From NCBI RefSeq assembly GCF_032921865.1, contig NZ_CP136684.1:3879001-3943000 (forward strand): DNA of 64,000 nt. The letters are read 5' to 3'. This document shows positions 15,111-51,653 of this stretch, piece by piece. This DNA comes from Thalassospira lucentensis (GTDB lineage Bacteria; Pseudomonadota; Alphaproteobacteria; Rhodospirillales; Thalassospiraceae). Each line of letters starts with the position of its first letter. The first letter of the stretch is position 1. The notes beneath the pieces are model-generated. The model made no database searches and was not told where the DNA came from. It saw only the letters and a program-made list of their open reading frames with translations. Made by a program: the position numbers and the translations under genes.

Positions 15111-15152
15111 GTCCGTACCGGAAAGTCAATTCCCGACACGAGCGCCATGAAA

Positions 15153-46163: not shown

Positions 46164-46613
46164 TCAGTTGCCCCGGATCATCGCGGCGATGGTAGCCTCT
46201 GCAACGACCTGATCGTTGACGCGAACTTCACTTTCGAATTTCCAGACCGGACCACGGCTCTGTTTTTTCTTCACATGGATATGCATGACGTCACCCGGTA
46301 CGACCGGCTTGCGGAACCGTGCATTGTCGATGCTCATGAAATAAACCAGTTTGCCTTCGGCATCTTCGCCAAGGGTCTGGACAACAAGGATGGCCGCCGT
46401 CTGTGCCATGCTTTCGATGATCAAAACACCGGGCATGATCGGCTGTTCCGGGAAATGGCCGGTAAATTGCGGCTCGTTCATCGTTACATTCTTGATGCCA
46501 ACGGCTGAATCGTCGACGGCAATATCAACAACCTTGTCAATAAGCAGGAATGGATAACGATGCGGAATCATTTCCAGAATGCGCTGAATATCAACACTTA
46601 CCAGTTCGGTCAT
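46164..46613 (-). CDS. fabZ: 3-hydroxyacyl-ACP dehydratase FabZ
   Basis: 149 residues, hot-dog fold. Dehydrates 3-hydroxyacyl-ACP in fatty acid elongation, competing with LpxA/LpxD for substrate. The catalytic His is in [13 protein letters not shown] and the Glu in [17 protein letters not shown]. It lies 11 nt after lpxD and 2 nt before lpxA in the lipid A cluster. Confidence 0.97.
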
Positions 46614-47644: not shown

Positions 47645-48228
47645 CAGGACGCTTCCTTGAACTCGACGCTAAGGGTCGGCATTGCCTTGTTCACGCGGTC
47701 AAACACCTCCTTGGAAGCATCCATGGCATTGGCATGCAGAATGACCTGGCTTTTATGCAGAACCAGTGTTGCCTTGCGCTGCTCGGCAACATCGGCAATC
47801 ACTTCGATCAGCGTTTTCTGGAACTTCACCCGCGATGAATTAAGCGCCTCGTCAAGGATGCGGTTGCGTCCCTGGGCAAACTTCTGAAAATCAGCCACTT
47901 TCTGCTGAAATTCTTTCTGTTTCTGCTGAATGACATCGGCAGACAGAAGGGTTCTCTGTTGGGCGATTTCCTGTTCTTCCTTGCGCAGGGCCTGCTGACG
48001 CTTTTCGATTTCCTGCTGATAAGCTTCCTGACGCGTTTTGATCTGCTTGGTCATGTCCTGCATGGCAGATGCTTCACGCATGATGCCTTCAAAATCGACG
48101 ATCATCACAACAGCAGTCGTGTCCTCCGCCCCGGTATTTTCCTGGGCCGAGGCGACAGTCATGGCACCGACCGCAAATGTCATGGCAATTGCGGCAATGG
48201 CAGTCTGGATAGATTTCATCATTTTCAT
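47644..48228 (-). CDS. OmpH/Skp-family periplasmic chaperone
   Basis: 194 residues. Periplasmic chaperone for outer-membrane proteins on the way to BamA. A signal peptide covers about residues 1-28 (ending ATVASAQE-like TVASAQ). The body is a long charged coiled coil ([20 protein letters not shown] onward), as in Skp trimers. Its ATG overlaps the bamA stop by one base (TGATG), and its stop overlaps lpxD. Sequence conservation in Skp is low, so the assignment rests on layout and position. Confidence 0.9.
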
Positions 48229-50550
48229 CAGAATCTGGTCCCGAAGTTCAATCGGAACACTTCCTCTTTGTCGTAATCTTCTTTGAGAATAGCCTGCGAA
48301 AGGTCAACACCAATCGGGCCAAACGGCGATTCCCAGCCTACCCCAATACCAACAGACGCCCTAAGCGACCCCTCGTCATAAATCTCGCCGGGCCTTGCCC
48401 CATCAACCCCTTCAGAAGAACCGAAATCACTGAAAACACGACCAGTCAGGGCAAATTCGGATGGCAATCCTAACGGGAAGTCCATCTGCACCGTACCAGT
48501 ATAGAAGAATTTGCCACCGACCGCATCGGTTGTCTCAATATCGCGCGGGCCAACACCGGCAGATTCAAAACCGCGAAGGTTCGAACCACCGGTAAAGAAG
48601 CGCTGCGAAATGCGCGTGTCGTCGCCAATACCAAAGATATAACCAGTAGATCCCTTGGTCGACAGCACCCATTCTTTTTCACGATCCAGCGGATAGTAAT
48701 ACCCGCCATTCACACGCGTACGAAGATAGGTTTCCGATCCACCAAGACCGGCGAAATCGTTGGAAAGCTGCATGAAGTAGCCTTCCTTCGGCGAAATCGT
48801 GCTATCACGCTGATCGTATGTCAGCGTCTGGCCAATCGTTGAACTCGGAAAATTCCGGATCTTCTTCACGCAGCAGTCGCGATGCATCGCTATCAATGTC
48901 CGAATATTCGTTAACTTCGAACCCGTAACGCACCGACTGGGACAATGCTTCGGAATAGCGGAAACCGGAACGCAGACCGATACCGGTTTGCTTCTCGTCA
49001 TAAGAACTTTCGTCCTGGTTGTCTTCTTCACGGCGATAGATGTCGAAACCGGCACTCACATCGCGATCAAGGAAGTAAGGCTCGGTAAAGGACAGATCGA
49101 TCTGCTGGCTCGAGGAGCCAAGCGTAAAGCCAAGACGCAAGTCCTGCCCTTTACCCAGCAGGTTGCGTTCACGGATACCGGCCTGACCAAACGCACCGTC
49201 ATCCGTACCGTAACCGGCACCGATGGAAAACTCGCCGGTCGACTTTTCTTCAACATCGACCTCAAGAACCGTCTGATCCGGTGCACTGCCCGGAAGCGTT
49301 TTCACATCAACCGTCTTGAAGAAGTTCAGGTTTTCAACACGCTGGCGCGAACGTTTCAGTTTCGAACTGCTGAATGCGTCGCCTTCGACAAGGCGGAATT
49401 CGCGACGTACAACCTCATCAAGGGTACGGACGTTGCCGACCACATCGATGCGCTCGACATAAACCTTCGGCCCTTCGGCAATCGTAAAGGTGATGTTGAT
49501 GACACCGGTCTCGCGATCGCGTTCGACATTCGGGCGAATATCGATAAACGCATAACCCTGATCACCGATGCTGGTGGTCAGCGCATCAATGGCGTCATCG
49601 ACAAGGTCGGCATTATACCAGTCGCCTTTTTCAATCTCGATCAGCGGCATCAATGTCGCCGGATCGATCTTGTCGATCTGCGATACAACATTGATATCGC
49701 CAAACCGGTAACGCTGGCCTTCACTGACGGTATAGGTGATGAAGAAGTCCGAACGATCCGGGGTCAGTTCGGCAACCGACGACAGAACCTGGAAATCGGC
49801 ATAACCGGCTGAAAGATAGAAACGGCGGAGCAATTCACGGTCAAACGTGACGCGATCCGGATCGTAATTGTCATCCGCCGTCAGGATTTTCCACCAGGCA
49901 CTCTCGGTTGTCCGGACAACTTCGGACAATTCGCCATCATCAAACGCCTTGTTGCCGACAAAGTTGATCTTGCGAACACCGGTCGCTTCACCCTCGTCAA
50001 TTTCAAAGACAAGATCGACACGGTTCTGTTCAAGCTGGATGACTTTGGGTTCGACCGTTGCGGCAAACCGGCCGGAACGGCGATACAGATCAAGAATACG
50101 CTGAACATCAGCCTGCACCTTGGTGCGGGTGTAAACAACGCGCGGACGCAACTGAAGCTCCGCCCCCAACGCATCATCCTTCAGGCGCTCGTTACCTTCA
50201 AAGGCGATCCGGTTGATGATCGGGTTTTCAACGACATTGACCTTCAGCACACCCTGCTCGAAACCGATGGAAACATCGGCAAAAAGTCCGGTCGAAAACA
50301 ACGACTTCAGCGATTCGTTGATTCTTTGCGGATCATAGGGATCGCCTTCTTTTACCGACAGATACGCGTTAACCGTCGCGGCTTCGATACGGTTGTTGCC
50401 GTCTACCCGGATTTCGCGGATAACGCTGCTTCCCTGGGCATAGGCCACCATCGGAATTATGGTTGGCGCGGTTCCACCAAGCAAGACTGCCGCCAAAGCA
50501 GCCGCTTTCACATTACGCAGCAAATTCAACCCCCTGATGCCGTCTATCAT
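48228..50550 (-). CDS. bamA: Outer membrane protein assembly factor BamA, interrupted by a one-base frameshift
   Basis: BamA inserts beta-barrels into the outer membrane. Reading from ATG 50550, the frame gives a signal peptide (ending PMVAYAQG), five POTRA-type repeats to about residue 410 and the first barrel half, then leaves frame after REEDPEF and stops at 48805. The expected continuation (SSTIGQTLTYDQRD through RGFESAGVGPRD to the C-terminal Phe) is in the +1 frame and ends at 48228. Removing one base from the T4 run (A4 at 48849-48852 on plus) joins the halves into about 773 residues. The ATG overlaps the rseP stop (TGATG). Probably functional if the extra base is an error. Confidence 0.93.
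48849..48852 (-). other. Putative frameshift position in bamA (homopolymer run)
   Basis: AAAA on the plus strand (TTTT on the coding strand). With three T the reading is GAA TTT CCG AGT TCA, which restores BamA; with four it becomes GAA TTT TCC GAG and ends soon after. Confidence 0.85.
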
Positions 50551-51653
50551 CAGCCTGCCAGGCCTTTGAAGAAATTCCAGACGCCCAATTGCGTCAGGTC
50601 GTTCCAAGTTGCAAAGATGATTAAGCTGAATACCAAACCTGCCCCGAGACGGAAACCATATTCTTGTGCTTTTGCGCCCAAGGGCTTACCGCGAACCGCC
50701 TCGATGGCATAAAACACCAGATGACCACCATCAAGAACCGGAACAGGCATCAGGTTAATCAACCCAAGGCTGATCGAAAGATACGCCATAAAGAACAGAA
50801 GCGGGCCAATGCCACCCTCGGCAACCTCGCCCGACATCTGTGCGATACGGATCGGGCCGCCAAGCTCGGAACTGTCACGTTCGCCCGAAATCATTTCACC
50901 CAATGCCGACATCGTCTGCGCGATCAGGTTCCATGTCGATGAAAACGCCTTGCCGGTCGCATCGATAATCCCGTCGCGCTGGGTTTCAAAAGCACCGGCG
51001 GTCACGCCAAGGCGGCCGAAACTCTCAACATCATCACCCTCGCCCGATGTCACGGCCTCTGGTGTTACCTGAACCTCGATTTCCTGCCCGTCACGCAGGA
51101 CCGAAAGCGAAACCGGCGTACCGGCATTGGCCCGGATCACATCCGAAAGTTCGCTGAACCAGTCAATCGGCTGCCCGTTGATCGCGCTGATCCGGTCCTG
51201 GGATTGCAATTCCGCAATCGCCGCCGGGCTGCCGTCAACAACCTCCCCCACCACCGGCAGGGCGCGCTGCTGGCCGACTGCCGCAAAAAGAACGGTAAAA
51301 ACAATGATGGCGAACAGGAAATTGGCCAACGGACCGGCAAAAACAATCGCCGCGCGCGCCGCCAGCCCCTTGTGATGAAACGCATGCTTGCGTTCTTCTT
51401 CGTCAAGGTCGTCACGCTGCCCGGCACTTGCCGGGTTCATGTCGCCAAACATTTTGACGTACCCACCAAGCGGCAGCAGGCTGACTTTCCAGCGCGTACC
51501 CTTTTTATCGTACCAGCCAAAAAGCTCTGGCCCGAATCCGATTGAAAACGCTTCAACCTTCACGCCATTCCGGATCGCGACCCAGTAATGCCCGTATTCA
51601 TGGACAAACACCAAAACCGAAAGAACAAATAGAAAGGCAAGAAGGGTTTCCAT
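50550..51653 (-). CDS. rseP: Site-2 intramembrane zinc protease RseP (M50)
   Basis: 367 residues. Cleaves membrane substrates such as anti-sigma factors. The zinc motif HEYGH is in VFVHEYGHYWVA near residue 20 and the third-ligand motif is NLMPVPVLDGGHL near 310. A PDZ domain (about 125-205) lies between the membrane segments (SPAAIAELQSQDRISAINGQ). GGAAC precedes the ATG at 51653. It sits between dxr and bamA and overlaps bamA by one base. Confidence 0.96.
   Translation of the reverse strand: METLLAFLFVLSVLVFVHEYGHYWVAIRNGVKVEAFSIGFGPELFGWYDKKGTRWKVSLLPLGGYVKMFGDMNPASAGQRDDLDEEERKHAFHHKGLAARAAIVFAGPLANFLFAIIVFTVLFAAVGQQRALPVVGEVVDGSPAAIAELQSQDRISAINGQPIDWFSELSDVIRANAGTPVSLSVLRDGQEIEVQVTPEAVTSGEGDDVESFGRLGVTAGAFETQRDGIIDATGKAFSSTWNLIAQTMSALGEMISGERDSSELGGPIRIAQMSGEVAEGGIGPLLFFMAYLSISLGLINLMPVPVLDGGHLVFYAIEAVRGKPLGAKAQEYGFRLGAGLVFSLIIFATWNDLTQLGVWNFFKGLAG

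Follow-up and report, generated by a model that had tools for sequence, protein, structure and literature searches.

Origin of the interrupted bamA frame

BamA is essential in Gram-negative bacteria where this has been tested, and a bamA gene that reads as broken in a deposited genome raises the question of whether the break belongs to the strain or to its sequence. We addressed this question in a window of 64,000 nucleotides (the whole stretch of DNA that was analysed) from the chromosome of Thalassospira lucentensis (NZ_CP136684.1, positions 3,879,001 to 3,943,000; the genome is called G000 hereafter). Between positions 46164 and 52863 of the window, the translations suggest the usual order dxr-rseP-bamA-skp-lpxD-fabZ. 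The bamA gene lies on the minus strand and, with its two frames joined, extends from 50607 to 48228. Instead of a single continuous frame, we found two overlapping minus-strand frames, the first stopping at 48805 and the second ending at 48228. The upstream ORF (48805-50607) encodes the N-terminal region, the POTRA repeats and the beginning of the Omp85 barrel, and the downstream ORF (48228-49055) encodes the remainder of the barrel down to the terminal Phe. Profile searches placed the upstream ORF at positions 2-531 of the BamA model TIGR03303 and the downstream ORF at positions 526-741, with Pfam matches to POTRA repeats and Omp85 1-99 for the former and to Omp85 113-325 for the latter. The upstream fragment reached 598 bits and passed the equivalog cut-off of 297, with POTRA and Omp85 domains, and the downstream fragment by itself stayed below the cut-off at 194 bits. 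After the shift, the upstream ORF is out of frame from about 48842 to 48805; the downstream ORF is in frame from about 48841 and its preceding part is out of frame. These consecutive matches confirm that the two ORFs are parts of one BamA, and they bear out the two frames and end points given by an earlier sequence-only reading of this DNA.

Position of the extra base

The sequence-only reading had also proposed that removal of one base from an A4 run (48849-48852, plus strand) joins the two halves. As observed with a MAFFT alignment and with BLAST against a strain of the same species (G060, T. lucentensis MCCC 1A02072, NZ_LPVY01000003.1, taken as L049), the window does carry one base more than its relatives, and this part of the proposal holds; the base is however not in the A4 run. 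The same run is common to close relatives (L049, which is G060, L034 and L066), which rules it out as the site of the error. The surplus base lies in an AA pair at 48842-48843 of the plus strand (a TT pair on the other strand), which in the direction of the gene comes 6 bases after the run. Read on the minus strand, the window has GAGTTC here and G060 has GAGTC. BLAST against G060 places the extra base at 48843, and the MAFFT gap is drawn slightly further along. The doublet thus falls inside a GANTC, the motif recognised by CcrM. As read off the alignment, all 13 aligned relatives have a GANTC site here, either GAGTC or GAATC, from a Glu-Ser codon pair, and none of them has the extra base. Because the indel is in 48842-48843, the junction peptide EDPEF/PSSTIGQ deduced from the A4 run is wrong, and the corresponding sequence in G060 is EDPEFSESTIGQ.

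We then compared the locus across the genus, as the earlier reading had suggested. In 28 of the 28 other genomes, G060 included, bamA is one open frame of 772-820 aa with no stops, and the split was found in none of them. An intact frame in every relative appears to be beyond chance.

A nanopore-only assembly

The G000 assembly has 4,733,519 bases in 2 contigs, with a chromosome of 4,566,725 bases. These are the exact figures given in Table 1 of PMC11008194 for Thalassospira isolate 2D.20.1, and the matching numbers indicate that G000 is the assembly of this isolate, made from Oxford Nanopore (ONT) reads alone. The isolate was obtained from giant kelp gametophytes and its DNA from a 48-h culture; sequencing used V14 chemistry and R10.4.1 flow cells, bases were called with 'ONR-Gyppy' v6.5.7 (so spelled there, and taken to mean Guppy), the assembler was Flye 2.9.1 at 30x, and short-read polishing is nowhere mentioned (PMC11008194).

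A separate observation concerns homopolymers. Among the 1189 AAAAA/TTTTT 5-mers of G060 compared with G000:C2:3553001-3953000, a one-base deletion was counted in 9 and an insertion in 1, from overlapping 5-mers and hence from fewer real events. This pattern fits nanopore under-calling of homopolymers and may also be natural variation.

One-base insertions at GAGTC sites

We compared a 400-kb part of G000 that includes the window (G000:C2:3553001-3953000, the first stretch) with G060, over 396,603 aligned bases. Many of the one-base indels by which ORFs are shortened in G000 fell in GANTC sites. G000 showed a one-base insertion at 6 of the 102 GAGTC sites of G060, the highest rate of one-base indels among 5-mers; five of the six read GAGTTC and one GAAGTC. 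For the other 5-mers, 207 of 396,160 had a one-base indel. The difference gives a Fisher p of 2.9e-11, an approximate value given that 5-mers overlap and do not count independently, and about 1.5e-8 after multiplication by hand by the 512 5-mers. The motif was spotted in the very data where it was first counted. In the reverse direction, the count was 0/76. With substitutions included, GAGTC was changed at 38/102 sites from G060 to G000 and at 12/76 in reverse; this count of all changes was set aside as evidence, its spectrum being mixed and possibly natural.

At five of the six insertions, the G000 ORF is shorter than its G060 counterpart. Besides bamA, these ORFs encode a TolC-family outer membrane protein, an ABC transporter ATPase, an HAD-type hydrolase and a glycosyltransferase-like protein, and the insertions in the four of them are at about 3,568,096 (L131:15096), 3,708,131, 3,761,171 and 3,808,769 of G000:C2. 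At the sixth, the G000 ORF is the longer one (194 vs 179 aa), and further indels are close by. Two genes of the CoA-ligase type also have an indel at or adjoining a GATTC, and one of the two carries an additional indel outside any GANTC. For GATTC/GAATC sites as a whole, an indel was found at 1/349 in the first stretch and 1/363 in the C5 stretch. Several other genes of the deposited genome thus probably appear broken for the same reason as bamA. Within the window, the other indels relative to G060 whose length is not a multiple of three are at 15144, 23168, 32389, 32403 and 37668; those at 15144 and 32389, of one base each, affect G060 ORFs of 190 and 171 aa.

The enrichment at GAGTC did not recur in four other stretches (0/166): the insertions were 0/131 for G060:C5 1-400,000, 0/5 and 0/16 for the two ends of C3 and 0/14 for C21. 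With all GANTC sites pooled, the counts were 7/451 in the first stretch and 1/671 in the four others (Fisher 0.009), and the signal is therefore mainly one of GAGTC. A search with G060:C2 returned short weak matches only. For the control strains G015 and G060, GAGTC indels were 0/34 and 0/27, from too few sites to say much.

We also counted the indels that break an ORF of at least 150 aa, a crude measure in which some indels are near start codons or intergenic and some share one ORF. In the first stretch, 15 such breaks were in G000 and 6 in G060; the corresponding numbers were 6 and 7 for C5, 4 and 0 for C3a, 0 and 0 for C3b, and 13 and 8 for the control pair G015 and G060. This count alone does not tell the strains apart. 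A GANTC was present in the intact strain in 7/15 cases in the first stretch, 0/17 in the other G000 comparisons and 2/21 in the control. Weight was therefore placed on indels inside ORFs with family matches.

A CcrM-like methylase and the proposed origin of the error

CcrM methylates adenine in GANTC (PMC3708114). G000 encodes a CcrM-like protein (G000:C2:2105378-2106376) with N6_N4_Mtase and RAMA domains, which matches CcrMI of PDB 6pbd at E 9.7e-170. The break could then have arisen as follows. Isolate 2D.20.1 was assembled from R10.4.1 reads alone at 30x, and the extra base stands at a site that is GANTC in the relatives, in a genome that encodes such a methylase. As expected from the published behaviour of ONT data, the methylated adenines would shift the current, the basecaller would insert a base in most reads, and Flye would vote the error into the consensus. 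We give a probability of about 0.8 to this reading, in which methylation of the GANTC site by CcrM led to a consensus error in an assembly built from nanopore reads alone, and the living strain has an unbroken bamA.

The two parts of this reading do not have the same strength. That the split is a sequencing or assembly error, whatever its cause, is almost certain; the earlier reading had listed this option, and the intact gene in the relatives, the ONT-only assembly and the lack of decay on both sides of the shift (see below) support it. This verdict is independent of the methylation. That GANTC methylation caused the extra base is likely rather than proven, because the GAGTC enrichment was absent in the other stretches. 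An assembly error of another kind, a random or low-coverage consensus error without GANTC methylation, would agree with this absence and with a coverage of merely 30x (PMC11008194). However, a random error would hardly affect 6 of the 102 GAGTC sites compared in the first stretch, with every one of the six an insertion in G000, and we regard this explanation as unlikely.

Biological explanations of the split

If the frameshift were a real mutation, the isolate would survive without a full BamA. The deposited sequence does read that way, but the essentiality of BamA counts against such a loss, and an Omp85 search of the genome gave no second bamA. Moreover, four more ORFs are shortened by similar GAGTC insertions, and the gene does not show decay on either side of the shift. 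Before it, 14 of 1764 bases differ from L049/G060, with 13 synonymous and 1 nonsynonymous changes in 588 codons; after it, 7 of 615 bases differ, with 4 synonymous and 2 nonsynonymous changes in 204 codons. The true truncation that the sequence-only reading had considered found no support, and a real frameshift is very improbable.

Programmed ribosomal frameshifting, also put forward in that reading, would link both frames, and some joining would indeed be required were the base real, since both halves are conserved. Yet the relatives have neither the split nor the extra base, the stop comes about 36 bases beyond the shift and not at it, and an Rfam search of 48500-49200 gave zero matches up to E 1, so that this search found no RNA element at the shift site that could stimulate it; this mechanism has next to no probability. 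The same holds for a second bamA that would make the split copy dispensable: the only further Omp85 gene found in G000 (G000:C2:4104747-4105628) scores 182 bits to TamA (NF047950) and 168 bits to BamA (TIGR03303), both below the cut-offs, and counterparts, matched by size and score, occur across the genus. Of the 29 genomes (G000 among them), 28 have the gene in one piece of similar size and score, and G022 has two pieces on two contigs, so that this TamA-like gene is rejected as a spare bamA.

Overall, the split bamA is not a biological feature but an ordinary artefact of a known type. The value of this result is practical more than biological, in that a false sign of a broken essential gene is removed.

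Possible clustering near the replication terminus

On the G000 chromosome, the GC skew switches at about 3.8 Mb and about 1.54 Mb, and dnaA is at 1.72 Mb; we read the switch at about 3.8 Mb as the terminus and that at about 1.54 Mb as the origin. The first stretch spans the former and the C5 stretch the latter. GAGTC insertions amounted to 6/102 in the stretch around 3.8 Mb and 0/166 elsewhere (131 of these sites being around 1.54 Mb), with a Fisher p of 0.0028 for a split between terminus and elsewhere that was chosen after the data were seen. It is conceivable, though rather doubtful, that these errors cluster near the terminus. Against this idea, two of the six sites are 220-240 kb from the switch, and three small stretches 160-390 kb away give 0/35. 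In Caulobacter, GANTC is fully methylated near the terminus and long hemimethylated near the origin, as described in PMC3708114, and the same picture is given in PMC4490391. The difference between 6/102 and 0/166 could be explained by fuller methylation at the terminus, by lower read depth there or by chance, and the methylation gradient may be weak in the G000 DNA because it came from a 48-h culture. If the clustering were true, the methylation gradient of the cell cycle would leave its trace in unpolished nanopore assemblies.

Comparison with known systems

Both G000 fragments fit consecutive stretches of the TIGR03303 profile, as known BamA proteins do. Unlike in known BamA, neither fragment is complete alone, and we consider that the assembly is faulty and not the gene. 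With regard to the error itself, GANTC-linked errors in ONT assemblies have been published for agrobacteria (PMC12710330) and Brucella (PMC12392509), and the setting resembles that of G000: an ONT-only alphaproteobacterium, a CcrM-like gene and an error at a GANTC inside a gene. The Brucella source also states that methylated motifs were error-free in most cases and that 6.5% of the errors were ascribed to methylation. The agrobacterial errors described in PMC12710330 are SNPs near GANTC sites, whereas G000 has a one-base insertion within GAGTC. For Neisseria, PMC12506013 gives 77 of the 103 wrong indels in R10 assemblies as being at a methylated base or one base from it; nearly all wrong indels were missed bases there, in contrast to the extra bases of G000.
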